Assembly (NCBI RefSeq): GCF_040358985.1
Contig: NZ_CP132932.1
Coordinates: forward strand, 1,984,001 to 2,048,000
Reading direction: 5' to 3'
Source of the DNA: Tunturibacter empetritectus
Lineage (GTDB): Bacteria; Acidobacteriota; Terriglobia; Terriglobales; Acidobacteriaceae
Length of the DNA stretch: 64,000 nt
Under the pieces are notes generated by a model. It was not told the origin of the DNA and made no database searches. It saw nothing but the letters and a program-made list of their open reading frames with translations. Shown in pieces: positions 5,038 through 55,953 of this stretch. The position numbers and the translations under genes are program-made. The number at the start of each line of letters is the position of its first letter. The stretch's first letter is position 1.

Positions 5038-5231
5038 GTCCTGCCGGACGGGCCGCCTTCGCGGCGAGCGGTCACTTCGTGACTTGTATACCGCTTCGCG
5101 TGGTGCTCCCGTTGGTCGCAAACGGATGATGATTCCGACCAACGGGAGGGCTGATGCTGCTCACGCTGCGCAGACCGGTACACTCGTCACGAAGTGACCG
5201 CCCCACGAGCAGTGGACCTGTCCGGCAGGAC
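5038..5231. repeat. long nested palindromic element, copy A
   Basis: The 194-bp element starts GTCCTGCCGGACGG and ends with the inverted counterpart CCTGTCCGGCAGGAC. Inside are GGTCACTTCGTGAC with TTGTATACC on the left and a matching GTCACGAAGTGACCG on the right, then an inner arm pair CTCCCGTTGGTCG / CGACCAACGGGAG around a short loop. It fills the convergent gap between the molybdopterin enzyme (stop at 5028) and the NTF2-like gene (stop at 5236). It encodes no plausible protein and could act as a bidirectional terminator or mRNA 3' hairpin. Confidence 0.9.
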
Positions 5232-5235
5232 ACTG

Positions 5236-5586
5236 TCAGCTGGCGATGGTGCCTTGATGGAAGAGGAGCTGCCAGCGGTTGTCGCGAAAGATCCAGAGTG
5301 AGGAGCGATGGGAGACGGCGACTGAGGTGGTGGCACGATAGGTGGCGTGGACGACATTCTCTGCGAGCTGCGCGATGTAGAAGTGGTGGATGGTTGCGGG
5401 GCGAGCTGCGCTGGATAAGAGCACATCGATGGTCTGTTGGCGATTGAAGACGCGGCCGGAGGTGCAGAACTCCCTGTACTCGTCGGCGAAGAGTGGAATG
5501 AGGGCTCTGCGGTCAGTCTCCCGGTCAGGATGGAGGAGACGCTCTTCGAGTGCATAGAGATGGTCTTGAAGTTCGGACTTAGTCAT
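5236..5586 (-). CDS. NTF2-like / DUF4440-type protein
   Basis: The start is taken at the ATG at 5586 (MTKSELQDHL), giving 116 residues; the open frame continues 40 codons upstream but runs into prmC. The size and pattern fit the SnoaL/NTF2-like cone fold: an N-terminal helix with ALEERLL, LIPLFADEYREF, an arm containing FNRQQTIDVLL, and C-terminal strands ending SLWIFRDNRWQLLFHQG. Members range from ketosteroid-isomerase-like enzymes to non-catalytic binding proteins, so no reaction is assigned. It lies 61 bp behind prmC on the same strand and is probably the last gene of that transcript. Its stop is 5 bp from palindromic element A. Confidence 0.75.
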   Translation of the reverse strand: MTKSELQDHLYALEERLLHPDRETDRRALIPLFADEYREFCTSGRVFNRQQTIDVLLSSAARPATIHHFYIAQLAENVVHATYRATTSVAVSHRSSLWIFRDNRWQLLFHQGTIAS

Positions 5587-5647
5587 GGAACGAAGACTCC
5601 AATTGTTAATACGAACGACAGAGTCGAGGGTTTCATTGTGACAGATT

Positions 5648-6535
5648 TTATTGGTTCGGGTTTTTATCCGTGAGGTCGCTGGTGTTCGGCTTGCGCGCAA
5701 GGGCAACGCGCGGGATCTGCTGGAGATCGTTGAGGAAGGTGAGATCGTTCCATCCGGCTAGCAGGTGGGTGAGCGGCTGCTGCTGGCCGTGGCCAATCTC
5801 GAGCGCGAGGAGACCGGTTGGTTTGAGTGCGCTCAGCGCTTCCGGGATGAGCCGCCGGTAGAGGTCGAGGCCGGTCTCGCCTGCGAAGAGCGCGGCGGCG
5901 GGCTCATGCTCGCGAACCTGGGGGTGCAGGGTGAGGCGGTCGGATTCGGGGATATAGGGTGGGTTGCTGACAATGGCGTCGAAGGTTGCGCCGTGAGATT
6001 TGATGGCGGCGAGGAGATCGGAGGTAAGGAACTGGATCCGATCGGCTACGTTGTGGTCGTGAGCGTTCTGCTCTGCGATGGCGAGGGCATCGAGAGATAG
6101 ATCGACGGCGATGATCTCGGCCAGTGGAAGGTGGACGGCGATGGCGATGGCGATGGCTCCCGACCCGGTGCCGATATCGACGAGCCTTACAGGCTGATTC
6201 GCAGGGATGAGTTTGAGCACCGCTTCGACGAGATGTTCGGTCTCGGGGCGAGGGATGAGGACAGCGGGAGTGACGTGGAGACGCAAGCCGTAGAACTCCT
6301 GCTCGCCGGTGATGTACTGGATGGGCTCGAGCTGGCGGCGGCGGTTGATAGCGATCTGATAAAGCGCGTCTTGGGCGGGGGAGAGGTCGCGGTCGGGATA
6401 TGCGATGAGAGTGACGCGGGAGATCTGCAGCGTGTGGAGGAGAAGGAGTTCGGCGTCGCGGTGGGCGTGTTCGCTGAGGTGTGGGTTGGCGGCCAGCTCG
6501 GCTGCAGCGTTGGTGATGGCCTGGCGGAGGGTCAT
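5648..6535 (-). CDS. prmC: peptide chain release factor N5-glutamine methyltransferase
   Basis: A 295-residue SAM-dependent methyltransferase that modifies the glutamine of the GGQ motif in release factors. The N-terminal helical domain (1-90) is followed by QYITGEQEFYGL and VLIPRPETEHLVE, typical of PrmC/HemK. Next come the SAM loop VDIGTGSGAIAIA and the catalytic SNPPYIPESD motif, in which NPPY holds the substrate glutamine amide. Only 8 bp separate it from the secreted-protein gene upstream. prfA, encoding its substrate, lies upstream on the same strand but is separated by three unrelated genes and a terminator, a loosened version of the common prfA-prmC pairing. Confidence 0.95.
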   Translation of the reverse strand: MTLRQAITNAAAELAANPHLSEHAHRDAELLLLHTLQISRVTLIAYPDRDLSPAQDALYQIAINRRRQLEPIQYITGEQEFYGLRLHVTPAVLIPRPETEHLVEAVLKLIPANQPVRLVDIGTGSGAIAIAIAVHLPLAEIIAVDLSLDALAIAEQNAHDHNVADRIQFLTSDLLAAIKSHGATFDAIVSNPPYIPESDRLTLHPQVREHEPAAALFAGETGLDLYRRLIPEALSALKPTGLLALEIGHGQQQPLTHLLAGWNDLTFLNDLQQIPRVALARKPNTSDLTDKNPNQ

Positions 6536-6543
6536 TCTGGCGG

Positions 6544-7359
6544 CTACCTTGGCTGCGGCTGAGCGGTGTCTGAGGTTGTGGGAAGGATGGTAGAGCTGGC
6601 GGCGAAGCGATGGTGGTTGCTGTACTTCGCGGTGAAGCGGAAGGCGTTGGTCTTCGGGGTCTCGGTCGTAAAGGCGATGACCGTGGTGGGCAGCCAGAAG
6701 GATCTTCCGTTGAGAGTGACGGGTGCGAAGTCAACGGAGGCTGTGCCTCGAACTGCCTGATCTTTGCCAACGGGATTGGGGACGGTGCGCTCGATGTGCG
6801 TAACCTGCGCCGAGGCGGTGTCGATGACGAACTTGCCGGTGGTGCCAGGCTGGATGGAGACGCAGGCCGATTGTTTCGCGGCAGATTCACGGGCGGTGAA
6901 GGTGAAAGCTTCCGTACCAGGAGAGGCTGGGGAGGAGCGATCGGACTGGTAGTCGAAGCACTCGTGGCGATCGGAGGAGAGAAATTTTGCAAGTACGCCG
7001 CTGAAGCCTCCGCGGAACGAGATGGGCATGTCGAGTTTCTTGCCGCTCGATGATTTGCCGTTGATCGACTTCACTTCGCGAGACTCTTCGAGGGCGCCGT
7101 CTGGCGAAGGCGATCGCGCGACGCGGAAGAGCGCTTCGACGGTGGTTTCGTGTTTGAGCTGACCGTCATGGATCTCCTGAGAGGTGATGTGCTCGTCACA
7201 GAGAAAGCTGGGGACGGTGGACTTGTACTGCTCGGTGTTGGCTTCGATGCGGGAGAGGATCTGCTCGAGTGCGGGGTCGGGCTGCTGGGCCAGGACAGCG
7301 GCGAAGCAGCCGACAAGGCAGACGGGAGACAGGCGTGCGAGAAGTGAAGAGAGGCGCAT
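6544..7359 (-). CDS. secreted protein of unknown function, acidobacterial type
   Basis: 271 residues with an N-terminal signal peptide (LARLSPVCLVGCFAAVLAQ) and likely cleavage after Ala-Gln. The body begins with a helix (LEQILSRIEANTEQYKSTVPSFLCDEH), then a beta-rich region containing VKSINGKSS, ITHIERTVPNP and NGRSFWLPT. Such proteins with an 'FxCxE' start and a late 'LPT' strand are frequent in Acidobacteriota, but I know no function. It sits between the VOC gene (35 bp) and prmC (8 bp), so it is very likely co-transcribed with both. The start at 7359 gives a complete signal peptide. Confidence 0.75.
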   Translation of the reverse strand: MRLSSLLARLSPVCLVGCFAAVLAQQPDPALEQILSRIEANTEQYKSTVPSFLCDEHITSQEIHDGQLKHETTVEALFRVARSPSPDGALEESREVKSINGKSSSGKKLDMPISFRGGFSGVLAKFLSSDRHECFDYQSDRSSPASPGTEAFTFTARESAAKQSACVSIQPGTTGKFVIDTASAQVTHIERTVPNPVGKDQAVRGTASVDFAPVTLNGRSFWLPTTVIAFTTETPKTNAFRFTAKYSNHHRFAASSTILPTTSDTAQPQPR

Positions 7360-7394
7360 GCGTGACTTTACGGTAGCAGAGGGGAGATGGTTCG

Positions 7395-8249
7395 CTAGCG
7401 GGTTTCGAGGATCAGGACGTTGCCATCGGGATCGATCACGGTGAGGGTGGCTCCGTTTTTGACGGCGAAGATGCCTTCTTTGTGGAGGTGGCGCGCGGCC
7501 TTGCCCAGGTTGCTCGATTCGAGGGTGATGCGAGCATGCATGCCGGTGGTTGCAGGTATGATCTCCAACTCCTGGCCGCTCTCGCCGGGCATGTGGAGGC
7601 TCATCGGATCGTTGGCGATGGGCTTGAAGTTGAGCTGATTGATGTAGAAGTCGCGAGCCGAGGCGGGGTCTGCCATTGGGACTGACACCGCGACCAGCTT
7701 TTCGCCGATGCGGTCTGGACCAAGATGTTTGCCCTGGTCTTCGCTGTGGAGCGAACCCGCGAGGTACTGGGTGTACTCGATGGTCTGTGGACTGGAGGTT
7801 TGCAGAGGGCCCCCCAGGATGAAGCGAAGGTTCCCAGCGGTTGTTTTAAGGATGGGAGTGGGAGTAAGGCCGTGGCTGCGGTAGTCGTCGTTGATCGCCT
7901 GCAGGTCGGCGCCTTCAAAGCATAGGCTCAGGAAGCCGGCATCGGGCTCGGTTGGGTTGGCCGCGTGGAGCTCGATGAACTGGGTGTCGTTGACCTTGAG
8001 GAAGGACTCGTAAGGGACGTTGTCTTTGCGCAGATCGAAGGCCTGTTCGAAGCCGAGCTTCTCGTAGAAGGCCACTGAGGCGGCGAGATCGTGGACGCGA
8101 AGAGCAACGTGGGCGAAGCCGTTGAAGGGCGGTGTCCTGGTATCAGGCTGTGCGTGAAGAAGGGGTGCGAAGAGGATTAAAGCAAGAGTGAAATATCTTG
8201 CTAAAGATAGAGTCGGCCCAGAGCACCCGTTGAGGTGCTGTTTGATCAT
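7395..8249 (-). CDS. secreted VOC-family protein with two glyoxalase-like domains
   Basis: The ATG at 8249 (MIKQHLNG) gives 284 residues; a further in-frame ATG upstream would overlap the NYN gene. A signal peptide (YFTLALILFAPLLHAQ) is followed by a first vicinal-oxygen-chelate domain with HVALRVHDLAASVAFYEKLGF and QFIELH. A second domain has VAVSVPMADPASARDFYINQLNF and ends VIDPDGNVLILE. The DPDGN motif and the paired domains are classic for glyoxalase/dioxygenase-fold enzymes. Metal-ligand His/Glu positions are only partly identifiable, so the reaction is unassigned. The intact export signal is noteworthy, as most VOC enzymes are cytoplasmic. Confidence 0.8.
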   Translation of the reverse strand: MIKQHLNGCSGPTLSLARYFTLALILFAPLLHAQPDTRTPPFNGFAHVALRVHDLAASVAFYEKLGFEQAFDLRKDNVPYESFLKVNDTQFIELHAANPTEPDAGFLSLCFEGADLQAINDDYRSHGLTPTPILKTTAGNLRFILGGPLQTSSPQTIEYTQYLAGSLHSEDQGKHLGPDRIGEKLVAVSVPMADPASARDFYINQLNFKPIANDPMSLHMPGESGQELEIIPATTGMHARITLESSNLGKAARHLHKEGIFAVKNGATLTVIDPDGNVLILETR

Positions 8250-8272
8250 GCCGCGATTCCTTGGGAGATTAG

Positions 8273-8863
8273 TTACGGCCATAACACAGGACGCTTGAAA
8301 TCGATATGGGAGAGTAGTTCGGGTGCGAGGCGAACCTTTGGCGGTTCAATTAAGACAGTTTGCAGGCCCGCTCGGCGGCCGTATTTGAGAGCTGGAACAC
8401 AATCGGTGTCGTTCGAAACCAATACGATCCGTTCAACTGCGTGATTGGCAGCATATGCCGCAATATCCAAACCAATTCGCATATCGACTCCTTTCTGCTC
8501 AAAATCTGGCTGAAAGTCTGCGTCGGTGAGTTGAGCCTGATTTGTTACAGGCGTGCGTTTTGGTTTGAATCCCCTGAATTTCAGCACTCCACGACGAACT
8601 GCGAAGAGATCTTTATGTGAAAGCTCATGGAGCCACGCATCGGATGACTGAAATACGTGAGGCAGACCTGAGACGGGTAGTTTTACTGTGCCCGAATACA
8701 AAGCGCAATCGTAGTAGAGGATTCGAAACAAGGATTCATCGGCTGTTTTGCAGGCTAATGCAAATCGTTCGATGTAATCGGGGTTGTAGATCCTTTTTGC
8801 TTTCTTCGCCTCAACCCTGAGAAACCCACCATCAATTAAAACAGCTACTCTTACATCGGGCAT
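8273..8863 (-). CDS. NYN-domain (LabA/DUF88-like) putative ribonuclease
   Basis: 196 residues beginning MPDVRVAVLIDGGFL. The conserved acidic residues of the PIN-like NYN fold are visible: Asp11 in LIDGG, Asp127 and Asp133 in KGVDMRIGLDI, and Asp152/Asp154 in VSNDTD. A C-terminal GLQTVLIEPPK strand completes the fold. Such proteins are metal-dependent RNases or partners in RNA processing; the target here is unknown. Composition is visibly more AT-rich than flanking genes and codon choice is less GC-biased, suggesting transfer. It is the first gene of the minus-strand run towards prmC, 23 bp before the VOC gene. Confidence 0.85.
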   Translation of the reverse strand: MPDVRVAVLIDGGFLRVEAKKAKRIYNPDYIERFALACKTADESLFRILYYDCALYSGTVKLPVSGLPHVFQSSDAWLHELSHKDLFAVRRGVLKFRGFKPKRTPVTNQAQLTDADFQPDFEQKGVDMRIGLDIAAYAANHAVERIVLVSNDTDCVPALKYGRRAGLQTVLIEPPKVRLAPELLSHIDFKRPVLWP

Positions 8864-8889
8864 TCAAAATGCTCCCCCAAAAATATAAA

Positions 8890-8905
8890 GCCCCCATAAG
8901 GGGGC
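8890..8905 (-). terminator. rho-independent terminator-like hairpin downstream of prfA
   Basis: GCCCCC and GGGGGC form a perfect six-base stem around ATAA. On the minus strand the stem is followed by TTTATATTTTT, the T-rich tail expected when transcription comes from prfA. It separates prfA from the NYN gene, whose start lies 27 bases further on. Confidence 0.75.
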
Positions 8906-9031
8906 GTATAGTGCTCGCCTACGAGCGTAACGGATAACACCACTTTACTCACTCCTTATCAAGATAGCAATAGATGTCGAAAATCTTATTAAGCCACCCG
9001 TCATTTGAACGGTACTAACATAAGCACGGGT

Positions 9032-10108
9032 TCAGGCAGCCTCTGCTTCGGCTTTGAGCTTTTCCGCGGTGTAGTGCGCGATGAGTGCGTCGATGGTGGG
9101 CTGAATCTGGCCTTCCATCACCATCGCGAGCTGGTGGTTGGTGAGGCCGATGCGGTGATCGGTGAGGCGGTTCTGAGGGAAGTTGTAGGTGCGGATCTTC
9201 TCGCTGCGGTCGCCGGAGCCGATCTGCTGCTTGCGATCCTTCGCCTGGAGTTGGTGGATGCGTTCGGCCTCCACTTCATAGAGGCGGGCGCGGAGGACAC
9301 GCATTCCCTTCTCGCGATTCTTGATCTGCGACTTTTCGTCCTGGCAGCTGACGACGGTGTTGGTCGGCAGATGCGTGATGCGGACTGCGGAGTAGGTGGT
9401 GTTCACCGACTGTCCGCCGGGTCCGGAAGAGCAGAAGGTGTCGATGCGCAGATCCTTGGCTTCAATCTTGATGTCGACCTCTTCGGCCTCGGGTAGAACG
9501 GCGACGGTGATGGCGGAGGTGTGGACGCGGCCTTGGGTTTCGGTCGCGGGAACGCGCTGAACGCGATGGACGCCGGACTCGTACTTGAGCTGCGAGTAGA
9601 CGTTTTCGCCTTCGATGATCGCCGTTACGTCCTTCAATCCATGGCCGATGCCAGACTCGGTCTGGGAGAGGATCTCGACCTTCCACTTGTGCTGCTCGGC
9701 GAAGCGCATATACATGCGGAAGACCTCTGCGACGAAGAGTGCTGCCTCGTCGCCGCCGGTGCCGGCACGTAGCTCGAGGATGACGTTCTTCTCGTCGTTA
9801 GGGTCTTTGGGGAGGAGTAGAACTTTGAGCTGCTCCTCTACAGGCTCGAGGCGCGGCTCCAGGGTGTCGAGCTCGGCCTGTGCCATCTCTTTTACCTCGG
9901 GGTCGGGGTCGGCGAGCATGGCTGTAGCCTCGGCGATGCCGTCCCGTATCTTGCGGTACTCGCGAAACTTCTCGACGGTGGGCTCCATGTCGCGGTGCTG
10001 CTTGGCGATGCCCTGAAACTTCTTCTGGTCGTTGACCAGCGTGGGGTCGGACATCTGCCTGCCGAGGTCTTCGTAACGGGCTTCAAGTTGATCGAGGCGG
10101 TCGAACAT
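9032..10108 (-). CDS. prfA: peptide chain release factor 1
   Basis: 358 residues, the normal RF1 length. The protein opens [19 protein letters not shown] and has the stop-codon recognition tripeptide PAT in [14 protein letters not shown], which marks RF1 (UAA/UAG) rather than RF2. The catalytic GGQ lies in [20 protein letters not shown], and the glutamine is the substrate of PrmC encoded downstream. The C-terminal [16 protein letters not shown] is also canonical. Expression probably starts in the 256-bp gap shared with the divergent DNA ligase gene and ends at the hairpin at 8890-8905. Confidence 0.97.
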
Positions 10109-10364
10109 GGCTACTCCATTGAGTAAAAAGGAATTAGGGGATCAGAAGGGTCGGGGTAGAGGAGAGGCGCAGCTAGGCAAAATCGTGGCGGTCGGGAGAC
10201 TCGGCCACGCGGGAGAGAGACACCGAATTTGCGGCTGTGTTCATGTCTGTTTAGATGTTACTCCTTGTGCCTACGGTGCAGCCAGCCCCTTTTTGGCATC
10301 TTTACTGAGTGGAATCAGTTGATCCCAAACGGGGAATCGGGCATTCGGGGTGAGGGTTGAAGCT

Positions 10365-12422
10365 ATGGCGTTGTTTGCGGTGGTGGCGGAGCTGGCAGAG
10401 CAGTTGGCGCAGGAGGCTGGAAAGCTGAAGAAGCGCGCAGTTATGGCAGAGGCGATCGCGAAGGTGCACTCAGCAAGTCCGGAGAGTGGGTCGGAGAGCG
10501 AAGACTCAGGTTTGCTGGCGCTCTATCTTGCCGGAACGCCGTTTGCAGAGGCGGATTCGCGGAAGCTGAACGCCGGCGGGGCGTTACTCTCGAAGGCGCT
10601 GCTGGCGGTCAGTGGAGCCAGCGATCAGGCGCTGACGGCGGCGTACCGGCGGCACGGAGACATGGGTGCGGCGGCCTTTGATCTGCTGATCGCAGCGAGA
10701 GAGGAGAATGCTCCTGAGCTGACGCTGGCCGAGGTAGCCGAAGCGTTTGCTGCGATGGCCGTGGCGAAGACGACGGCGATTCGTGCGGCTCTGGTCGAGG
10801 GTTTGCTGCGGCGGGCGACTCCGCTCGAGGCAAAGTATCTGCTGAAGCTGATGCTTGGCGATATGCGAATTGGAGTGAAGCAGAGCCTGGTGGAGGAGGC
10901 GATTGCCGCTGCGGCTGGAGCTTCTGTGGAAGCTGTACGTCGAGCGGTGATGCTCGAGGCGGATCTTGGTAGCGCCGTGCAGCGAGCCTTCTCCGGGACC
11001 CTGCCTGAGGCAAGGATGCGGCTGTTTCATCCGCTGGGATTCATGCTGGCGTCGCCGGTGGAGACGCCGGAGGAGGCGGTGGAGCGGTTCACCGAAAAGC
11101 CCGCGAAGGTGCCGGTTGTGAAGACCGGCAAGCCTCGCAAAGACAAGAAGGCAGTGACCGTAGAAGCGGCGAACGAAGTGATGGAAGAAGCTGCGGTGCC
11201 GCAAAGTTTTGATGCGAGTGCCGATGTCGACGCCGAGCAGTTTGCCGATGCTTCGCCCGAAGATGTACTTGCAAAAGGGACGCAGGCGGGCGGTAATGCG
11301 ACGCTCGCAAACGCCACAGATGCCCAGGGCGTGCAGGCGTTTCTCGAAGACAAGTACGACGGGATGCGGGCGCAGATACACTGCGGAGACTCCGGTCAGC
11401 CGGGGCGGGTGGCGATCTACTCTCGCAACAAGGAAGACGTTACCGAAAGCTTCCCAGAGCTCGAGGAGGCGTTTGCGCAGGTTCGCGCCGACCCGGATGC
11501 AGATGCGAGTGAAGGTTCCCTGATCCCGTACTCTCTGATATTCGACGGGGAGATTCTGGGATGGGACTTCGAACAGGCGCGTGCTCTCCCGTTCGCCGTG
11601 CTGGGGCAGAGGATTGGGCGTAAGCGAGTTTCGAACGAGTGGCGCCAGCAGGTGCCGGTCATCTTTATGGCCTTCGACCTGATGTGCGCCGATGGCGAAC
11701 TGCTGCTGGAGCTGCCGTTACGGGAGCGGCGCAATCGGCTGGAGGCGGTGGTGGAGCGACTGGTAGAGCGCGTGGCCTCTCCGCTGGTGGTGGACGAGCG
11801 GGCGCGTGATTCGCAGGCGGTGTTGTTTGCAGGCGAGCAGAGCGCTGGATTGGAGAGGCTGATGATCTCGCCGTCGCGGCTGGTGGAGTCTGCGGAAGAT
11901 ATTGACCGGGCTTACGCCGATGCACGAGCGCGAGCGAATGAGGGTGTGATGCTGAAGGCCGCGGAGTCAATCTATCAGCCGGGTCGGCGGGGGCTGGCGT
12001 GGGTAAAGCTGAAGCGCGAGTTGGCGACGCTGGACGTGGTGGTGACGGGCGCGGAGTTTGGGCATGGGCGGCGCGCAGGCATCTTGAGCGACTATACGTT
12101 CGCGGTGCGCGGCGATGCGGGCGAGCTACTCAACGTCGGCAAAGCCTACTCGGGCCTGACGGACGTCGAGATCGGCGAGATGAGCGCGTGGATGATGGAG
12201 CACACTCTCGAAGACCAGGGGCACTTTCGCACGGTGGAACCGCTGATGGTGCTGGAGGTAGCGTTCAACAACATTATGCGCAGCGGCCGTCACGCGAGCG
12301 GGTTTGCGCTTCGTTTTCCGCGCATCCTGAAGATCCGGACGGACAAGCCTGTGGCCGAGATTGATACCGTCTCGCGGGTGGAAGAGGTGTATCAGTCTCA
12401 GGTCGACAAACCGGTGGAATGA
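10365..12422 (+). CDS. ATP-dependent DNA ligase with unusual linker
   Basis: About 685 residues. The ATG at 10365 (MALFAVVAELAEQL) is preferred over a GTG at 10350. Residues 1-235 form the helical DNA-binding domain (LLRRATPLEAKYLLKLML and GDMRIGVKQSLVEEAI are characteristic). The nucleotidyltransferase domain has EDKYDGMRAQ with the adenylated Lys330, then YSRNKEDVTE, FDGEILGW and EGVMLK. An OB-fold domain ends the protein. Family members normally pass almost directly from the DNA-binding domain to motif I. Here residues about 243-322 are a Lys/Ala/Asp-rich low-complexity insertion. It seals nicks in repair, additional to the housekeeping NAD-dependent ligase expected elsewhere. Confidence 0.93.
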   Translation: MALFAVVAELAEQLAQEAGKLKKRAVMAEAIAKVHSASPESGSESEDSGLLALYLAGTPFAEADSRKLNAGGALLSKALLAVSGASDQALTAAYRRHGDMGAAAFDLLIAAREENAPELTLAEVAEAFAAMAVAKTTAIRAALVEGLLRRATPLEAKYLLKLMLGDMRIGVKQSLVEEAIAAAAGASVEAVRRAVMLEADLGSAVQRAFSGTLPEARMRLFHPLGFMLASPVETPEEAVERFTEKPAKVPVVKTGKPRKDKKAVTVEAANEVMEEAAVPQSFDASADVDAEQFADASPEDVLAKGTQAGGNATLANATDAQGVQAFLEDKYDGMRAQIHCGDSGQPGRVAIYSRNKEDVTESFPELEEAFAQVRADPDADASEGSLIPYSLIFDGEILGWDFEQARALPFAVLGQRIGRKRVSNEWRQQVPVIFMAFDLMCADGELLLELPLRERRNRLEAVVERLVERVASPLVVDERARDSQAVLFAGEQSAGLERLMISPSRLVESAEDIDRAYADARARANEGVMLKAAESIYQPGRRGLAWVKLKRELATLDVVVTGAEFGHGRRAGILSDYTFAVRGDAGELLNVGKAYSGLTDVEIGEMSAWMMEHTLEDQGHFRTVEPLMVLEVAFNNIMRSGRHASGFALRFPRILKIRTDKPVAEIDTVSRVEEVYQSQVDKPVE

Positions 12423-12566
12423 CCCGAACGCTGTCCGGTAGGACTGCAGCGAGGAAGCCTTCGGGCTCGCCGAGTTTAACCGACAGAACCTTGTATTTCT
12501 TGATTGCTATGGCTCCCTCTGGCTGCTAAAGTCCGTTCCACAGCCACCTAGTTCGTCGGGGAGACG

Positions 12567-14165: not shown

Positions 14166-14215
14166 TCGCAGCCCACCGGGTGACAGATCGATCTCAACAG
14201 GCAGAGAATGCTGGA

Positions 14216-28000: not shown

Positions 28001-28236
28001 GTCCTGCCGGACGGGCCTCCTGCGCGGAGGGCGGTCACTTCGTGACGCGTATACCTTGTTTGGGCGAGGCTGGCTGCTCCGATCTTCCCGTTGGTCGGAA
28101 TCATCTTCTTTCGCGACCAACGGGAGCGCCAACCGAAGGGGTATACAAGTCACGAAGTGACCGCCGCCGAATCGGGGTCCCCACAAACAGGTCTTCGTTT
28201 TTGGGGTGACCAAGCAGGGCGCCCGTCCGGCAGGAC
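28001..28236. repeat. long nested palindromic element, copy B (with extra module)
   Basis: 236 bp from GTCCTGCCGGACGGG to CCCGTCCGGCAGGAC, with inner arms GGTCACTTCGTGAC / GTCACGAAGTGACC and CCCGTTGGTCG / CGACCAACGGG. The right half carries an extra ~55-bp module (GGGGTCCCCACAAACAGG ... TTTTTGGGGTGACC) that can form its own hairpin. It begins five bases after the stop of the membrane-protein gene and lies before the L,D-transpeptidase gene. Confidence 0.9.
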
Positions 28237-33143: not shown

Positions 33144-33294
33144 GCTCCCGTTGGTCGCAGGCTGAGCTCGTGCCGACCAACGGGAGGAACTACCGAAGGG
33201 GTATACCCGTCACGAAGTGACCGCTCGAACCGGGGCCCCCCGCAGGTTTTCGTTTGCGGGGTGGCCAAGCGCAGTGGGCCCGTCCGGGCAGGAC
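33144..33294. repeat. long nested palindromic element, copy C (left end eroded, extra module)
   Basis: 151 bp recognisable from GCTCCCGTTGGTCG through CGACCAACGGGAG and GGTATACCCGTCACGAAGTGACCG to CCCGTCCGGGCAGGAC. The outer left arm is missing or degraded. The right side carries the extra module (CCGGGGCCCCCCGCAGG ... GCGGGGTGGCC) also seen in copies B and F. It lies in the 352-bp gap between the divergent XRE-cupin and FN3 lipoprotein genes, and nothing else is seen there. Confidence 0.85.
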
Positions 33295-40570: not shown

Positions 40571-40748
40571 GTCCTGCCGGACGGGCGCCCTGCGCTGGCG
40601 GCGGGCGTTTGCACGCCATTTTAAAGCTTCGCCCGGTCCTTCCGCTGGTCGGAATCAACACCCTTCGCGACCAACGGGAGCGCCAACCGAAGGGGTATAC
40701 AAGTCACGAAGTGACCGCACGCCGCGTAGGCGGCCCGTCCGGCAGGAC
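40571..40748. repeat. long nested palindromic element, copy D
   Basis: 178 bp from GTCCTGCCGGACGGG to CCCGTCCGGCAGGAC. The right half has CGACCAACGGGAG, GGTATACAAGTCACGAAGTGACCG. The left half has GGGCGTTTGCACGCC in place of the GTCACTTCGTGAC arm, so the two halves are mismatched at that level. The right end lies five bases from the hslU stop codon. Confidence 0.9.
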
Positions 40749-46586: not shown

Positions 46587-46777
46587 GTCCTGCCGGACGG
46601 GCGCCCTGCGCGGGCGGCGGTCACTTCGTGACTTGTATACCCCTTCGGCTGGTCCTCCCGTTGGTCGGAGGGAAGATTATTCCGACCAACGGAGGAGCCA
46701 AGCCGATAACCCGCCAAGAAAAGGTATACGCCCCACGAAGTGGGCGCCCTCCGCGTAGGAGGCCCGTCCGGCAGGAC
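46587..46777. repeat. long nested palindromic element, copy E
   Basis: 191 bp, GTCCTGCCGGACGGGCGCCC to CCCGTCCGGCAGGAC, with GGTCACTTCGTGACTTG / CCACGAAGTGGGC arms and CTCCCGTTGGTCGG / CCGACCAACGGAGGAG inner arms. It occupies nearly the whole convergent gap between the CDF gene (3 bases away) and osmC-like gene (9 bases away). Confidence 0.9.
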
Positions 46778-47494: not shown

Positions 47495-47523
47495 CTCGCA
47501 GACTGAGCCCCGCAGAGCCCTCT

Positions 47524-47770
47524 CAGAAACTGTCCTGCCGGACGGACCCACTGCGCTAGGCCACCCCACGAACGAAGACCTGTTTGCGGGGACCCCGGTT
47601 CGGGCGGGCGTTCACACGCCTTTTTAGAGCTTCGCGTGGTCCTCCCGTTGGTCGGAATTATCTTTGTTCGCGACCAACGGGAGCGCCAACCGAAGGGGTA
47701 TACAAGTCACGAAGTGACCGCCCGAATCGGGTGGCAAGCGCAGCGGGTCCGTCCGGCAGGACAGTTTCTG
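47524..47770. repeat. long nested palindromic element, copy F (longest, extra module, extended ends)
   Basis: 247 bp. Its outermost arms are longer than in other copies: CAGAAACTGTCCTGCCGGAC pairs with GTCCGGCAGGACAGTTTCTG. The left half carries the extra module in inverted orientation (CCACCCCACGAACGAAGACC ... GCGGGGACCCCGG) and a GGGCGTTCACACGCC arm. The right half has GGTATACAAGTCACGAAGTGACCG. It lies between the zinc-ribbon gene and the convergent M28 peptidase. Confidence 0.9.
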
Positions 47771-47801
47771 GACAGATTCTCAGGCCGTACCTTCGCGCGA
47801 T

Positions 47802-49484: not shown

Positions 49485-49555
49485 CAAGGCAGGCTCCTGC
49501 ACGACGGCATTCTTCGGATACCACGAGTCTAATCGATGGCCGGCAGGGATATCTC

Positions 49556-49626
49556 TTCGCGACCAACGGGAGCGCCAACCGAAGGGGTATACAAGTCACG
49601 AAGTGACCGCCCCGCGCGCAGCGGGT
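49556..49626. repeat. half-length palindromic element, copy G
   Basis: Only the right half is present: CGCGACCAACGGGAGCG, CCAACCGAAGGGGTATACAAGTCACGAAGTGACCG and a GCGCAGCGGG end. The terminal CCGTCCGGCAGGAC is missing. It lies between the divergent M28 peptidase and GH27 genes. Confidence 0.85.
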
Positions 49627-49661
49627 TTCTAGATATTGTTTGCGCGTAGCGGCCTTTTGAT

Positions 49662-51026
49662 ATGTTTATTCGCATGGTGATGAAGCGTTTTAGCGCAGCT
49701 CTGACGATTCTCCTCGCAATCCCGGCAACTGCCCAGGACAAGACGCTGGCCCCCACACCGCCCATGGGATGGAACAGCTGGGACGCCTACGGCGCTACCA
49801 TCAACGAGTCTCAGTTCCGCGCCAACATGGTCGTTCTCGCCGCTCAGTTGAAGGAGTTCGGCTGGCAGTACGTCGTCATCGACGAAGGCTGGTACCTCCA
49901 GAACCCCGAGAACATCTCCATGCCGCAGGCTCTGCGCTACACCATCAACCTCCGCGGACAGTACGAGCCCGCGCCCAACCGCTTCCCCTCGTCCGCGACC
50001 GGCAGCGGCTTCAAACCACTCAGCGACGCCGTCCACGACGACGGCCTCAGATTCGGAATCCACATCCTCCGGGGCATCCCAAAAAAGACCGTCTTCGCCA
50101 ACACCCACATCGGCTCCACCCGATACCGCGCCGCCATTGCCGCGGACACCACCGACACCTGCTCCTGGAACCCGGACAACTTCGGCGTCAAAGCCAACCT
50201 CGCCGGACAAGCTTGGTACGACGCCCTGATAAAGCAGTACGCCTCCTGGGGCGTCGACTTCCTCAAGGTCGACTGCATCGCACACCCCTACAAGAGCGCA
50301 GAGATTCGCATGATCCACAAAGCCATCGAGCGCTCCGGCCGCCCCATGGTCCTCAGCCTCTCGCCCGGGCCCACACCGATCGACCACGCTGGCGAAGTGG
50401 CAAAGAACGCGCAGATGTGGCGCATCTCAGATGACATCTGGGACCACTGGGACAAGGACCCCGACGCCGAATGGTCGCAAAGCATAAAGGGCCAGCTCCC
50501 CATCCTTGCCCAGTGGGCCGATCAGGCAAAGCCTGGAAGCTGGCCCGATGCCGATATGCTCCCCATTGGCCAACTCCGCCCAAACCCCGGCTACGGCAAA
50601 CCACGAAACTCAAGGCTCACCCAGGACGAGCAGAGAACCATGATCACCCTCTGGGCCATCACGCGATCGCCTCTCTTCCTCGGCGGAAATCTAACCCAGA
50701 TGGACGACGCCCTCAAGTCGCTGATCACCAACCAGGAAGTCCTCGATATGGATCGCTACTCCACAAACAGCGAAAGAAACACAGAGGACGGCTCGCTCGT
50801 CACCTGGACCTCCCACTCCATCCGCGGAGACAAGCACTACCTCGCCCTCTTCAATCTCAGCGACGCACCCGTGCACATCGACAAGACCTTCGCCCAGTAC
50901 GGCTATGTCGACAAAGCACAATACAAAGTCCGCGACCTCTGGCAGAGAAAAGAGCTAGGCCTGCTGAACTCCCTCCAGGTCGATCTCCCCCCACACGGCT
51001 CCGTCGTCTACTCCCTCCACGACTAA
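49662..51026 (+). CDS. GH27 alpha-galactosidase, secreted
   Basis: 454 residues counting from the ATG at 49662; ATGs at 49674 and 49680 are equally possible and give a cleaner signal peptide (MKRFSAALTILLAIPATAQ). The barrel begins TPPMGWNSWDAYG, then VVIDEGWY. Nucleophile Asp204 lies in WGVDFLKVDCI, and the acid/base region is MWRISDDIWDHW. The C-terminal beta-domain contains LALFNLSDAPVHI and ends GSVVYSLHD. It releases terminal alpha-galactose, for example from galactomannan or raffinose sugars. The last 26 codons have a decayed paralog at 52363. Confidence 0.94.
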   Translation: MFIRMVMKRFSAALTILLAIPATAQDKTLAPTPPMGWNSWDAYGATINESQFRANMVVLAAQLKEFGWQYVVIDEGWYLQNPENISMPQALRYTINLRGQYEPAPNRFPSSATGSGFKPLSDAVHDDGLRFGIHILRGIPKKTVFANTHIGSTRYRAAIAADTTDTCSWNPDNFGVKANLAGQAWYDALIKQYASWGVDFLKVDCIAHPYKSAEIRMIHKAIERSGRPMVLSLSPGPTPIDHAGEVAKNAQMWRISDDIWDHWDKDPDAEWSQSIKGQLPILAQWADQAKPGSWPDADMLPIGQLRPNPGYGKPRNSRLTQDEQRTMITLWAITRSPLFLGGNLTQMDDALKSLITNQEVLDMDRYSTNSERNTEDGSLVTWTSHSIRGDKHYLALFNLSDAPVHIDKTFAQYGYVDKAQYKVRDLWQRKELGLLNSLQVDLPPHGSVVYSLHD

Positions 51027-51421
51027 TTTGTCCTAACCCGAGTTGTAGCAAACGCTCGATATGGTCGTCATCCTGAACGGAGTGAAGGATCCCCGTATTT
51101 GCGGTTGCCGTTGCGGTTGCCGTTGCCATCGTGGTTGATGTAGTCGTTGTAACTGCCGTTGCCTGTCCTTTTGTTGTCATCCCCGAAGGGGATCTGCGTT
51201 CGCATTTGTTTTAGTCTTTGCTCGAGTTGACCCCACTTTCTGGGTGCCCCATTCATCGCGCATTTTGCGATGAGTGGGAATGCAATCTTTCCCAGCCAAC
51301 TGTTGCGGTTGCTCGTTTTGCTTGTCATTCTGAGCGAGCGGCGAGAAGCCTGTTCTAACCAGGCCTTCGCCGCCAGCCTCAGCTGTATCTCGCGCATGAC
51401 GATCGTCAAAACGTCAACTTC
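51027..51421. other. intergenic region with simple repeats
   Basis: 395 bases without a supported gene between GH27 and the convergent SRPBCC gene. It contains GTCATCCTGAACGGAGTGAAGGATCC (51067-51092), of a kind also found at 52519-52544. A 12-bp tandem repeat (51102-51127) follows. An imperfect inverted repeat CATTCATCGC / GCGATGAGTG lies near 51250-51280. A TCATTCTGAGCGAGCGGCGAG stretch lies near 51327. Confidence 0.6.
51102..51127 (+). repeat. 12-bp tandem repeat
   Basis: Two units of CGGTTGCCGTTG with a partial third, all downstream of the GH27 stop. The region continues with related TTGCC/GTTG motifs. It is likely simple-sequence expansion. Confidence 0.6.
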
Positions 51422-51931
51422 CTACTTCGCCTGCTTTAGGCCCGCAATAACCGCAGCAACTTTATCGAGTATCTGGTTCCAGCCCTCGAGTTGACCGCTA
51501 TTTTTCGCGCTCTCCATGGGTTCATTTCCAATGTGGGTAAGCTTCGTCTGGCCGTTGCCGAGATCCTCAAAGAGGGTCACGTCGTACGCGCCGTCTATAG
51601 CCTCATGTTCTATTCCTAATTGTTCAGGCTCGACCTTGTTTCCCTTCGAGTCCGAAAAGTACATGGAAGAAACGATCTTCTCGTGCAGAACAATCTCGTG
51701 GTACTCCACCGCATTCCAGAACTCCTGTCCATCCGGTGTCTTCATGCAGAGGAGAGATTTTCCTCCAACGCGAAAATCCATCTGACAAACCGGCGCAGTA
51801 AAGCCCTTCGGTCCCCACCACTGCATCACGTACTTCGGGTCTGTCCACGCCTTCCAAACCAACTCGCGTGGGGCATCAAAAACTCTTGTAACTACCATCC
51901 GCTCAACTTCGCTAACCGTGTTTTCTGTCAT
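51422..51931 (-). CDS. SRPBCC / AHSA1-like protein
   Basis: 169 residues with the Bet v1-like AHSA1 pattern: VVTRVFDAPRELVWKAWTDPKYVMQWWGPKGFTAP near the start, MDFRVGGKSLLCMKTPDG, and a final helix GWNQILDKVAAVIAGLKQ. The fold binds hydrophobic ligands. In pairs with an ArsR-like regulator, the two often form a small stress-responsive operon. Here its ATG overlaps the upstream ArsR-like stop by 4 bp, so it is translationally coupled. Ligand unknown. Confidence 0.92.
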   Translation of the reverse strand: MTENTVSEVERMVVTRVFDAPRELVWKAWTDPKYVMQWWGPKGFTAPVCQMDFRVGGKSLLCMKTPDGQEFWNAVEYHEIVLHEKIVSSMYFSDSKGNKVEPEQLGIEHEAIDGAYDVTLFEDLGNGQTKLTHIGNEPMESAKNSGQLEGWNQILDKVAAVIAGLKQAK

Positions 51932-52260
51932 CTCTTGACCTCCTCTTTCTTCATTTGATTTACAACTACATCCAGCTTGTCGAAACTCTCTTCCCAGAAT
52001 CGGCGATAGCTAATCGCCCAGTCGCTGACTGTCTTGATCGCCTCTGGCCTGAGCGTGCACACACTCTCTCGTCCACGCTTCGTCTTGATTACAATCCGCG
52101 CCCGCACCAGGTAGGCAATATGTTTTGAAATCATCTGCTGCGAGACTGCAAACGGCTCCGTCAATCCGTGCACAGAGGCAGGCCCACGGGAGAGTCGTTC
52201 GACCATCGCCCGTCGGGTTGGATCAGACAGAGCCGTAAATGTTGTATCTAACCTATCCAC
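51928..52260 (-). CDS. ArsR-family transcriptional regulator
   Basis: 110 residues from the GTG at 52260; a TTG at 52266 is also possible and no ATG is available. The winged-helix motif is TFTALSDPTRRAMVERLSRGPASVHGLTEPFAVSQQMISKHIAYLVRARIV. The metal-binding Cys positions of classical ArsR/SmtB (CxC) are missing, so metal sensing is unlikely. It resembles the regulators coupled to AHSA1-like proteins. It overlaps the SRPBCC gene by 4 bp and probably regulates its own operon. Confidence 0.9.
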   Translation of the reverse strand: MDRLDTTFTALSDPTRRAMVERLSRGPASVHGLTEPFAVSQQMISKHIAYLVRARIVIKTKRGRESVCTLRPEAIKTVSDWAISYRRFWEESFDKLDVVVNQMKKEEVKR

Positions 52261-52362
52261 AACCAAATGGTAGTGGGTTTTCTGTGAATGTCAAGTCCGA
52301 AGATCATCAATACGCTCACCGGGAAGGACGGGAAGGATCGGTTAGCGGGAAGTCAGGTCATG

Positions 52363-52443
52363 GGAAAAGAGCTAGGTCTCCTCAACTCCTTCCAGGTCGA
52401 CCTACCCCCACACGGCTCAGTCGTCTACTCCCTCCACGACTAA
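52363..52443 (+). pseudogene. remnant of a second GH27 alpha-galactosidase gene (3' tail only)
   Basis: The frame encodes KELGLLNSFQVDLPPHGSVV and YSLHD followed by TAA, matching the last 26 residues of the intact GH27 at 49662 except for two changes. Most nucleotide differences are silent third-base changes (GGC/GGT, CTG/CTC, GAT/GAC, TCC/TCA). Homology also continues a little past the stop (AGCAAAC...GTCGTCATC). No GH27 coding sequence is found upstream of it. Confidence 0.82.
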
Positions 52444-52704
52444 CTGCCAGAGGTCACTTGCAGCAAACACTCTATAGGTCGTCATCTGCAACGTAGCAAA
52501 CAAACAATCTCTACGGTCGTCATCCTGAACGTAGTGAAGGATCCCGGTCTTTGTTGTTGCTGTTGACTGTCCTTCTTTTCATCGACGTAAGCCATGATTT
52601 ATAGGACGGGCGGAGCGGATAGTTTCCAGGGTAAAGGTTTCGCCTTCGACGTGAGGCCGAGCCGGTCACTTCCGAGAAGCGCGTTTTACAGGACTAACGC
52701 TTCG
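52444..52704. other. intergenic region
   Basis: 261 bases with no supported gene. It holds the second GTCATCCTGAACGTAGTGAAGGATCC-type motif (52519-52544), followed by TTGTTGTTGCTGTTG. Confidence 0.5.
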
Positions 52705-53613
52705 TTAGTGCCTTTGGGATCTTAATAAAAAAACGGTTGCGACTGCTAGCGAGGCTGCTATAGCCCATTTGACCCGAGTAGATGCCATTGATTTGTACCT
52801 TCGCTCAGGTTGAGGCAATGGATTCCCTGAAGTCGCGGCGAGTATCAAACGCGCGGCTAGTTCGGGGCTGTCCCACTGGGGGAAGTGGCCGCAGTTCGGG
52901 AACCAGTAGAGTTGCGCGTCCGGAAACTTGGACTTCGCCCGGGCAGCTTGACGCGGCAGACATACGTGATCGTCTACGCCCCAACCGATCACGAGAGGAG
53001 CCAGAACCGAGCCTTTGGGGCTGCCACGCTGCACCTCACCATGTGCCAGGTTTTTGAGGAGCTCATCGAAGGAAGGAGACGCTGCGAAGGACCGCATCTC
53101 CGTAAGCGCAAGGTCAGAGCGGAGGGACCAGGGATGTGCAGAGAATTGAGCAAACAGTGCGGTGCGACCCACTGGACTGCTCGTGATGGCGGGCATCACG
53201 GGCTGCAGCGCTCGGACCAGCTGCACTGACGCCGCCACTGAGTAGTAAAAGACGGGAACCTCCCAACCTTCCCAGAAACCTCCCGGATCCAGTGAAACAA
53301 CAGCGCCGAGTACACCACCGCGCCGGACAAGCTCAAGAACAAGGCGTGCTCCCATCGAGCTTCCAACCGCATCTATGCCAAGTAGACCCTCTTCTTTCAA
53401 AAACTCCGTGACTGCATCGGCGAGCGTGCCAATGGATACGGAGCCGGATAGGGGCGGCGTTCGGCCATGGCCGGGGAGGTCAACGGCTATGACCTCACGG
53501 CCGCCCTTTGTGAGCCGGTCGATGACAAGCTCCCACGATGCCCAACTTCCGCCGATGCCATGTACGAGTAAAAGCGGTTTACCTGATCCGCGACGAACTG
53601 TATGAAACTTCAT
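52705..53613 (-). CDS. alpha/beta hydrolase with C-terminal membrane anchor
   Basis: 302 residues from the ATG at 53613 (MKFHTVRRGSGKP). LLLVHGIGGSWASWE supplies the oxyanion region. The nucleophile elbow is GSSMGARLVLEL. A late His lies in NCGHFPQWDSPE, with the acid in the preceding strand GWGVDDHVC. The final 25 residues contain a hydrophobic segment (WAIAASLAVATVFLL) followed by RSQRH, resembling a tail anchor, which is unusual for this fold. Substrate unknown. The gene stands alone. Confidence 0.88.
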   Translation of the reverse strand: MKFHTVRRGSGKPLLLVHGIGGSWASWELVIDRLTKGGREVIAVDLPGHGRTPPLSGSVSIGTLADAVTEFLKEEGLLGIDAVGSSMGARLVLELVRRGGVLGAVVSLDPGGFWEGWEVPVFYYSVAASVQLVRALQPVMPAITSSPVGRTALFAQFSAHPWSLRSDLALTEMRSFAASPSFDELLKNLAHGEVQRGSPKGSVLAPLVIGWGVDDHVCLPRQAARAKSKFPDAQLYWFPNCGHFPQWDSPELAARLILAATSGNPLPQPERRYKSMASTRVKWAIAASLAVATVFLLRSQRH

Positions 53614-53890
53614 ACTTCTTTGGATGCGCAATTTCTTACGTTACTTCGTTTTTCTTTGATCCCCAATTGAACGACCTGGCTTTGCCGACATGCTGCGCGA
53701 CTTCAGCATTGCATCCCCGCGTCACTCTGCCTTGTCGGCACCCGCTTGCCGCAGCACATGGGGATCTCGCGCATTACTCACGATTTGCCTCTATGCATCC
53801 ATGACGAAACTCGTATGGCGTCTTGCCATGGACAAGTCCCATCATGTTGCCGGTGCTCGGAGAATGTGCGTCGAAGTACCGGCGTAGTGT

Positions 53891-54526
53891 TTACGCTCCG
53901 GCCTGGAGCTCTTCCGAGATCCTCTGCGTTATTTTTACGTGCTCTTTAAACACGGCGAGCGAGAGTGTCCCGAGATGCCGTCCCTGGCCTTCTGCCATGT
54001 CGCTTTTCGGGGGAGCCGGATGCCCAAGATAAGCCTGGGTCAAATCCCGGAGTTCTATATGGTTTTCCAGCTGAGCCGCAATGTAAGCCTTGTCAAACTC
54101 CGGACCGGTCGGAGCATTCTTAATTTTTTCTAGCGTTGCTTTTGCCTTCGTGGTCATGGTTGGTACTGGCGTGTCGAGTTCCTTTAGCACGGTCGTCACG
54201 GCGATCGCTTCAGTCAGTTCAAATCCGGCGAACTCCTTGGCGTCGGCCCTGGATGCGCGCTCGACCGCGATCTTGCTTGTCACCAGCGAAAGTTCTGCGC
54301 GACCAATGACAGCCATCCCGAACTCTTTCACATTACTGGGGTTCATCATGTGGGCACCGGGATCAGTGCCAATCGTAGGGTTATCCTGCGCGAGACTATT
54401 GGGAGCGGATGAGAGCGTTAAGCCTGCAAGCCCCAGGCCGGCGGCGGTCGCGCCTTTGAGAAAACTCCGACGGTTAGCACTCATATGGTTCGGCTGGTTC
54501 TGAACTGCGGTCACATTTTTTTTCAT
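53891..54526 (-). CDS. DUF4142-family protein, TAT-exported
   Basis: The ATG at 54526 (MKKNVTAVQ) follows AGGAG with a four-base spacer; the ATG at 54484 (MSANRRSFLKG) is a second option. 211 residues. The twin-arginine motif NRRSFLKGATAAGLGLAGL leads to SAPNSLAQ. The mature part is all-helical: FGMAVIGRAELSLVTSKIAVERASRADAKEFAGFELTEAIAV and YIAAQLENHIELRDLTQAYLG, with the repeated helical pairs of DUF4142, a ferritin-like four-helix fold without obvious metal ligands. It may be an envelope-stress protein. Function not established. Confidence 0.9.
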   Translation of the reverse strand: MKKNVTAVQNQPNHMSANRRSFLKGATAAGLGLAGLTLSSAPNSLAQDNPTIGTDPGAHMMNPSNVKEFGMAVIGRAELSLVTSKIAVERASRADAKEFAGFELTEAIAVTTVLKELDTPVPTMTTKAKATLEKIKNAPTGPEFDKAYIAAQLENHIELRDLTQAYLGHPAPPKSDMAEGQGRHLGTLSLAVFKEHVKITQRISEELQAGA

Positions 54527-54805
54527 AAAACTCCTGGGTAAAATTGCCGTTGATGTGTATCGAAAAGTGAAAATGCCTGCGGTGCTACTCGAAAGTAGGA
54601 TGCCCCTTGAGATTAGGTGCAGCTGAGATGGCAAAACCCGTTTCAGTGGGATCAACCTGAAAGTAAGTTCAGAAACCACGCGGGCACACGAAAGAGGACT
54701 GGTGGGCCGACGCGGCTGAAGAAGCCTTGGCGCGCGATATTCAAAGCGCGCGGTTCACATAAAGTTGCTTCCCGCCGTTCTTCGCCTTAGTATCGCCCCA
54801 GGGGC

Positions 54806-55855
54806 ATGGCGAAGATAGACCTCAATCAAGCGCGATCCACCGAAGCTGAACGTCTCGTCTCGGCGGGCAAAGCCGACGACGATGACGCCTTCGAACTCAA
54901 GCTGCGCCCCACGCGCCTCGCCGAGTTTATAGGTCAGGAAAAAGCCAAAGAGCAGTTAGCCATCGCCCTCGAAGCAGCAAAGTCACGCGGCGAAGCCCTC
55001 GACCACGTCCTCCTCTTCGGCCCTCCCGGCCTCGGCAAAACGACTCTAGCCACCATCATCGCGAACGAGCTAGGCGTCGGCTACCAGCAAACCTCAGGCC
55101 CTGCCCTCCAGATCCAGGGCGACCTGACCGCCATCCTCACCAACCTCCGCGAGAAGCAGGTCCTCTTCCTCGATGAGATCCACCGGCTCCAGCCAGTCCT
55201 TGAAGAAAAGCTCTACACCGCGCTGGAGGACTACAAGCTCGACATCATCATCGGCCAGGGCCCCGCCGCTCGCACCCACGTGATGGAGATTCGCCCCTTC
55301 ACCTTCGTGGCCGCCACCACGCGCCCCGGCCTGCTCTCCTCCCCGCTACGCAGCCGCTTCGGAATCCTTCTCCGCTTGGAGTTCTACACCGACGACCAGC
55401 TCCGCTTCGTCGTCGAGCGCTCCGCCGAAGTCCTCGGCGTTCCCATCGACCAGGATGGCGCGGCCGAAATCGCCATGCGCTCCCGGGGCACCCCGCGCAT
55501 AGCCAACCGCCTGCTGCGCCGCGTCCGCGACTACGCCCAGGTTCGCGCTAAAGGCGTCATCGACCGCCCCACGGCGCAAGCTGCTTTGTCACTCCTCGAA
55601 GTAGACGCCCACGGCTTCGACGAACTCGACCGCCGCCTCCTCCGCACCATCATCGAGAAGTACGACGGTGGCCCCGTAGGCCTCAACACCCTGGCCGCTG
55701 CGTTAGCTGAAGAGCAGGACGCGCTCGAAGAGGTCTACGAGCCATTCCTCATCCAGATCGGCTTCCTCGACCGCACCCCAAGAGGCCGAGTTGCAACCCG
55801 CCTTGCCTACGAGCACCTGGGTATAGAGATGCCTCGCAAGCTAAGCCTCTTTTAG
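54806..55855 (+). CDS. ruvB: Holliday junction branch migration DNA helicase RuvB
   Basis: 349 residues. [47 protein letters not shown] includes Walker [31 protein letters not shown] includes Walker B. The sensor and arginine-finger region is [19 protein letters not shown]. The winged-helix C-domain ends [17 protein letters not shown]. It drives branch migration with RuvA, which is not in this window. Its stop codon lies three bases from palindromic element H. Confidence 0.97.
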
Positions 55856-55857
55856 CC

Positions 55858-55953
55858 CCGACCAACGGGAGGACGTAGGCACCGAACCGACCAAGACCGG
55901 TACACAAGTCACGAAGTGACCGCCCTCCGCGTAGGAGGCCCGTCCGGCAGGAC
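55858..55953. repeat. half-length palindromic element, copy H
   Basis: 96 bp corresponding to the right half only: CGACCAACGGGAGG, CCGGTACACAAGTCACGAAGTGACCG, and the terminal CCCGTCCGGCAGGAC. The left half is absent. It begins immediately behind the ruvB stop. Confidence 0.88.

Follow-up and report, generated by a model that had tools for sequence, protein, structure and literature searches.

ERIC/NEMIS-type repeats are imperfect palindromes of roughly 100–200 bp near genes, and their RNA hairpins can affect mRNA stability. REPINs are doublets of repetitive extragenic palindromic (REP) sequences that form hairpins, and compensatory changes between copies have been reported for them (PMC3116915). 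The GTAG/CGTC REPs are 20–40 bp long, have a single stem of 5–13 bp and carry their tag at one end (PMC3733652). In RNA hairpins, template switches can bring about multi-base compensatory changes in one event (PMC8794818). Here we describe a family of interspersed repeats in a stretch of 64,000 nucleotides from Tunturibacter empetritectus (assembly GCF_040358985.1, contig NZ_CP132932.1, positions 1,984,001 to 2,048,000), referred to as the window. On balance, and with only slightly more confidence than doubt, we regard it as a REP-like family, found mainly in one genus, whose arms, each predicted to fold into a chain of hairpins, stand mostly behind stop codons, were likely spread non-autonomously in trans, and would cap mRNA 3′ ends with their hairpins if transcribed.

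The unit of the family is an arm made of small local hairpins, mostly 81–137 nt long, which occurs singly or as an inverted pair. Read inwards from its outer end, the arm starts with hairpin E (GTCC-TGCC-GGAC). Next comes hairpin 2, in which three variable pairs precede C-TNCGC-G and one base is bulged, and then hairpin M (GGTCAC-TTC-GTGACC). A GTATACC stretch with one more hairpin, either short or long, leads to the inner motif. In B-type arms, hairpin M is replaced by a GC hairpin followed by T. The lengths of arms having both E and I motifs are mostly 81, 95–97 or 122–137 nt. An extra module of ~41 bp (CCCCACGAAC...GTTCGTGGGG type) is inserted at hairpin 2 of some arms; it was found in 14 arms among 80 full elements, pooled from the window genome (own genome), G032, G025, G014 and G052 with some orthologous, non-independent copies included, and never in both arms of one element.

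ERIC/NEMIS-type repeats are not known to us to have arms of several local hairpins or doublets of unlike arms, and the present family is set apart from them by description and not by sequence. The likeness lies in the imperfect palindromes near genes (PMC3733652). REPINs resemble the family more closely, in being high-copy extragenic inverted doublets accompanied by singlets, with compensatory changes and an inferred non-autonomous spread. However, REPINs are built from pairs of short REPs and go together with genes for REP-associated tyrosine transposases (RAYTs), whereas the arms here hold several hairpins, are unlike each other within a doublet and have no RAYT gene adjoining. With the GTAG/CGTC REPs the family shares a position behind stops and between convergent genes within 20 bp, head-to-head dimers, unexplained heterodimers and alternative complementary stem residues, and the CGTC repeats too are without a transposase; in contrast, three or more small stems are present per arm here. 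No GTAG/CGTC tag was found outside the E hairpin, where the only signals are a T at −1 (71–80% in the own genome, G032 and G025) and, weakly, AAG from −8 to −6; the letters CGTC at the foot of E on the other strand belong to the stem. Bacterial interspersed mosaic elements (BIMEs) of enterobacteria are likewise an intergenic mosaic of hairpin units and optional modules (PMC2817692, PMC3733652). The modules here are different ones, and exchange of a single hairpin between near neighbours is not known to us from BIMEs. RepRanger (PMC12306157) counts palindromes of Granulicella aggregans, and the part of it compared does not name this family. A literature search on four motif strings, on Acidobacteria and on related repeats found no description, the motif strings leading to two papers with titles unrelated to the family, and most subscription journals lying outside its coverage.

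The first-pass annotation of the window had described the repeat as a single long nested palindrome. The stretch is instead made of two unlike arms of local hairpins. In alignment A1, which covers the three local hairpins of 49 arms from the own genome (700 cells), 98.7% of the cells pair, compared to 89.9% with shuffled partners, and 55 cells are changed on both sides, compared to 13.2 after shuffling (0/500 shuffles as high). Alignment A2 contains 32 arms, 12 of them from TAA 166, and retains the row L279, which probably has no true E hairpin; both-sided changes occur in 9 of its 15 pairs, a result matched by 0/500 shuffles. In TAA 166 the entire E stem is swapped for GCGC/GCGC or GGCC/GGCC, with the TGCC loop unchanged. 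For the variable hairpin-2 pairs of 26 full elements, local pairing is 0.97 and cross-arm pairing 0.66, and identical hairpin-2 stems in both arms are present in 10 of 62 elements, compared to 10.4 when shuffled. Since local pairing exceeds cross-arm pairing and the two arms are no likelier than chance to share a stem, it is the local hairpins, not the long fold, that are kept. A depletion of identical hairpin 2 in both arms, considered when a count of 2/26 looked low, was dropped in view of this larger set. It is noted that the own and related stretches contain 176 hairpin-2 stems with perfect pairing, of which 170 belong to six versions, all of them one pair away from CCCC/GGGG. That stem is absent among the 176 and is present as hairpin 2 in the metagenome-assembled genome (MAG) NGEE_A_bin35 (L223, L244).

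The two arms of a doublet are also unlike in type. Among the 69 of the 80 pooled full elements in which both arms could be classed, 55 join an alpha (short M-type) arm to an arm of another type, a number reached by 0/20000 shuffles; two are alpha-alpha and 12 combine two non-alpha arms. The dinucleotide behind hairpin M is the same in the two arms of one element in only 1 of 22 cases (11.9 shuffled), and such an almost constant difference between the arms fits unlike arms. Doublets of two B-type arms number 0 among the 80 full elements, where about 4.5 were expected.

The 14-base end motif, GTCCTGCCGGACGG, lies at the places where full copies had been proposed. With ≤3 mismatches it matches the window 27 times, compared to a mean of 11.35 and a largest value of 19 in shuffled windows. 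The further copies expected beyond the window are present: the 5.03-Mb own genome has 93 forward and 109 reverse exact end motifs (202 in total; reversed control 0), and a covariance model of one arm gives at least 150 arm matches genome-wide. A strand bias by replichore, suggested by an incomplete set of the end-motif positions, was set aside on account of that incompleteness. Positions were sampled in a contiguous stretch of 864 kb surrounding the window. Of the 63 three-motif clusters found there, 18 are full doublets and 13 are other copies with two arms; 31 are single arms or fragments, and one is a spurious self-overlapping match, leaving 62 real clusters. This amounts to about one per 14 kb, sparser than the one per 8 kb first estimated, and if copies are evenly spread, extrapolation from the 864 kb gives a genome total of about 360. 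With ≤2 mismatches, the end and other motifs gave 0 matches in 40 kb of the 115-kb contig 2 and in all 17 kb of contig 3.

All eight places first proposed in the window are members of the family, five of them full and three partial. Their shared nested arms were borne out in part: the end motif is present at the full copies, but the exact middle motif is found on both sides in only two of the eight (5038 and 28001), and in the other six one side has a different hairpin or is missing. The copies, for which no strand is given unless stated, and the extra modules are as follows.

5038..5231, full element with a left arm of 81 nt (5038-5118) and a right arm of 96 nt (5136-5231); in a convergent gene pair, with stops 9 bp and 4 bp away.
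28001..28236, full element with a left arm of 97 nt (28001-28097) and a right arm of 123 nt (28114-28236); the right arm contains an extra hairpin module, and orthologous sites have other modules.
33145..33222, partial element; inner motifs of both arms and the right middle hairpin, without outer hairpin; followed by extra-hairpin-like sequence and flanked by divergent called genes.
40571..40748, full element; left arm 40571-40651, B-type, with a GC hairpin and then a T-rich stretch; right arm 40668-40748, M-type (81 nt).
46587..46777, full element with a left arm of 81 nt (46587-46667) and a right arm of 95 nt (46683-46777); two convergent called stops lie 3 bp and 9 bp away; the left arm has a hairpin 2 unlike that in G025, G032 and G014.
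47532..47762, full element; the left arm, 47532-47654, is B-type and contains an extra module, and the right arm is 47671-47762.
49560..49608, minus strand, half element; inner motif and middle hairpin only; flanked by divergent called genes.
55859..55953, minus strand, single complete arm of 95 nt; inner end 3 bp past a stop codon.
About 28165-28215, 33223-33260 and 47560-47612, extra hairpin module.

The positions of the copies relative to genes, called here by a simple hexamer script and not taken from an annotation, agree with the intergenic placement first proposed: in sequence that is 83.7% coding, 0/62 clusters lie inside a called gene and two overlap coding sequence by more than half. 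Convergent intergenic regions hold 21 of the 62 clusters, compared to 10.2 expected from intergenic bases (P 6e-4), and divergent ones hold 5, compared to 17.8 (P 6e-5). A pooled context count (44/118 convergent) includes orthologous copies and was not used as evidence. Between tandem genes, the median distance of full copies is 9 bp from the stop upstream and 117 bp from the gene that follows; between convergent genes the median is 8 bp from both stops (medians pool own and related stretches). The suggested spacing of 2–10 bases from a stop codon therefore describes the full copies (medians 8–9) and applies less to single arms (medians 17–22). The first-pass annotation had also likened the repeats to REP/BIME- or miniature inverted-repeat transposable element (MITE)-type families. 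The REP/BIME-like comparison is the best one, since the repeats are extragenic and of high copy number, form inverted doublets and singlets, and are concentrated behind stops and between convergent genes; a classical MITE fits badly, as discussed below.

Judged from these positions, a role of the elements at mRNA 3′ ends is plausible, and the hairpins, if transcribed, could act in RNA as 3′ barriers. Only the B-type arm shows a GC hairpin followed by T, and M-type arms have no T run. Terminator-like matches in 16 kb of the window number 18, near the shuffled background of 14.6 (sd 3.4). The B-type arm was considered as a directional terminator and set aside, as its orientation towards genes shows no clear bias. 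A scan of the window with Rfam 15 at curated score gave 0 matches, and with a lax threshold the 1.4 kb around two copies matched only long-hairpin miRNA models, the best with 51 bits against a cut-off of 268.

Among 100 genomes, at least 10 exact copies of the end motif are present in 15 of the 60 of the same genus and at most one in other genera, and the middle motif occurs in 19 of the 100, every one of the same genus. One genome, G028, has 70 middle motifs and no exact GTCC end motif. High copy numbers are patchy within one genus. Family-wide, the arm model matches 50 of 398 genomes, 34 of them in the same genus, and 6 of 79 genera in all; carriers among the matches listed are Edaphobacter lichenicola strains (now Tunturiibacter lichenicola in NCBI), Granulicella strains, TAA 166 and MAGs. 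At least 11 arm-model matches are found in G368, from another genus of the family, and the repeat family may have a second high-copy host in that genus. The viral_contigs set, searched with one 24-base pattern, gave 0 exact matches.

Site comparisons between the fetched stretches, made by set thresholds and with reciprocal ones included (n=259), yield 164 occupied, 18 empty and 77 unclear states. Of the sites in M8UP22, a genome of the same species, all 18 that could be matched in the own genome are occupied in the own genome. Element 47532 is missing in M8UP22 through a deletion between short homologies that left the outer end as a scar; it is missing without a scar in G025 and G032, and the own copy lies within a direct repeat of 5–6 bp. 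The site of element 5038 is occupied in G025 and G032 and empty in G047.

These positions and site states can also be read as those of a host-selected 3′-end device at gene ends, either a bidirectional terminator or an RNase-processing hairpin, for which mobility would be only a distant origin. The short median distances of full copies from both convergent stops and from the upstream tandem stop speak for such a device, as do the occupancy of most comparable sites in related species and the full pairing of hairpin 2 in most changed arms at orthologous sites. However, the convergent pair of G047 has only 8 bp between its two stops and no element, so that the element is not required there; the distribution in the genus is patchy; and the elements have no clear orientation, nor the M-type arms a T run. 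We consider this explanation unlikely. In the REP-like reading, the family was likely spread in the past as non-autonomous mobile DNA by an enzyme acting in trans, which would have recognized the folded single-stranded arms.

In a classical MITE, terminal inverted repeats would be used by the DDE transposase of a parent insertion sequence. The same motif does stand at both outer ends of full copies in the window genome, and the direct repeat around element 47532, at a site empty in two relatives, would suit such a mechanism. The ends of three TAA 166 elements, however, carry unlike stems and are therefore not terminal inverted repeats: in L207 and L265 (and in L254, with one mismatch) a GCGC end stem on one side is combined with GGCC on the other, each locally paired. 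In addition, many copies are single arms and target duplication is not consistent. An autonomous element flanked by end motifs was also sought, and the three intervals so flanked contain ordinary-looking genes, judged by eye and with no profile search. We regard the classical MITE as the least probable of the explanations considered, the search for transposases having covered the Y1 family.

As to the mover, the first-pass annotation had noted that no transposase is nearby and had proposed a search for a RAYT flanked by the same arms. Y1_Tnp profile matches number two in the own genome and 23 among the 15 relatives searched, taken with about 1.5 kb of flank (four loci shorter). No RAYT flanked by these arms was found among the 25, and the absence of a transposase nearby holds for Y1/RAYT genes, other transposase families not having been searched. 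The sole exception near a Y1_Tnp gene is one E-like match with 2 mismatches in L172. A RAYT as the mover was accordingly dropped as a candidate, the Y1 genes being without this repeat on their flanks. The two own RAYT-like genes, at C1:464378 (L121) and C1:617956 (L122), each stand among their own different palindromes, of the GGGCACGGCTTCAGCCGTGCC type and of the GGGTGCCCCATCC...AGGGTGGGGTATT type as read by eye, so that at least two further families of REP-like repeats may be present in the own genome.

At orthologous sites, hairpin 2 changes faster than its surroundings, and hairpins E and M stay. Rates were taken only from arms whose E and M motifs match at ≤2 changes, a filter that makes the rates for E and M somewhat too low. 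Within the species (21 arms, sites of identical sequence included), the stem of hairpin 2 has 19 differences in 168 positions (11%), compared to 2/252 in E and 1/276 in M, at a mean flank identity of 97.9%. Between the own genome and G025 the values are 36/104, 1/156 and 4/170, with flanks at 90.2%; between own and G032 they are 26/72, 1/108 and 0/104, and between G025 and G032 18/104, 2/156 and 3/146. Five of the 21 within-species arms are changed in hairpin 2, and four of these five are fully paired in both genomes, as are 8/10 changed arms between own and G025 and 2/2 between own and G014. The changes involve two or more pairs at once in 4/5 changed arms within the species and in 8/10 between own and G025. 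For all five within-species changed arms, an identical stem, loop and bulge is present in the other arm or in a copy 547–770 bp away, in at least one genome.

The whole hairpin-2 version is shared by 23 of 112 pairs of copies <3 kb apart, compared to 6.5 when shuffled (0/2000 as high). The test pools six sets; one genome supplied two of them and one species another two, and some pairs are therefore orthologous and not independent. At 3–20 kb the sharing is 9/167, compared to 9.6. For the stem alone, 32/112 pairs <3 kb apart share it, compared to 19.9 shuffled (P 0.006). Orientation is immaterial at 250–3000 bp, where the version is shared by 6/26 pairs in the same and 5/28 in opposite orientation. 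The dinucleotide behind M, used as a comparison marker, is not shared in near neighbours (9/26 at 250–3000 bp, compared to 10.2 shuffled). Within one element, in a differently drawn set, the full version is shared by 12/58 arm pairs, compared to 3.5, and the stem alone by 16/58, compared to 10.5 (P 0.04); this set differs from that of the 10/62 result given above in sample and in definition (stem, as opposed to stem, loop and bulge). It is likely that neighbouring copies copy one hairpin from each other, and hairpin 2 would then be exchanged by short-tract copying, through template switching or gene conversion, from a copy <3 kb away. In the events described in PMC8794818, the making or repair of a stem takes place inside a single gene, whereas a whole hairpin version seems to move between dispersed copies here.

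A more specific proposal is that hairpin 2 is a replicating cassette, copied during replication as one folded unit, with the nearest copy or the other arm as its source and in either orientation, and that this copying, not letter-by-letter selection, keeps the stems of hundreds of dispersed elements perfect while their letters change. We offer it tentatively, as a possibility that we would sooner doubt than accept. If it is true, the compensatory covariation seen here would be largely a trace of local copying rather than proof of a selected structure. A rival explanation would have mutation, not selection, keep the pairing: template switching would rewrite stems as perfect hairpins, and the elements would do nothing for the host. 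The multi-pair changes and full pairing within the species and between own and G025, the sharing of hairpin-2 versions by near neighbours in either orientation, and the description of such a mechanism for RNA genes (PMC8794818) are consistent with this. However, the hairpin loops are conserved between species even though the E stem is exchanged, a pattern for which mutation by itself does not account, and the E and M hairpins hardly change between orthologs. An origin of the pairing purely in mutation thus appears decidedly improbable.

Several observations weigh against the reading of a REP-like family that was spread in trans, may act at mRNA 3′ ends and exchanges hairpin 2 locally. As regards mobility, a flanking repeat of 5–6 bp is present at one site and absent at another empty site; the within-species site difference examined is a deletion, not an insertion; and no clear fresh insertion was found with one query element, whose best other match has 84% identity over the element (40 of 227 candidates scored). 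None of the 25 Y1_Tnp genes in 16 genomes adjoins the repeat, a search confined to this transposase family, and the carriers G014 (171 end motifs), G029, G002 and G028 are without a Y1 match at E 1e-3. As regards a role in RNA, single arms in tandem context face either way (15 vs 11), full elements have no clear polarity, although one might be expected of a device acting directionally in RNA, and two copies in divergent context lie inside the window itself. As regards hairpin 2, changed stems are fully paired in both genomes in only 3/6 cases between G025 and G032 and in 5/7 between own and G032. The stem alone is also shared weakly above chance at 3–20 kb (40/167, compared to 30.7; P 0.036), so that the 3-kb limit rests on the whole version.

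The architecture of these repeats, unlike doublets of multi-hairpin arms, was not met in the literature compared. Their fixed sites in close genomes provide many natural replicates of stems that change several pairs and often remain paired, and the origin of compensatory changes, whether paired selection or template switching, becomes directly testable. Covariation alone can overstate selection on structure in repeated DNA, and copying between neighbours would show how a structure changes its letters yet keeps its pairing.

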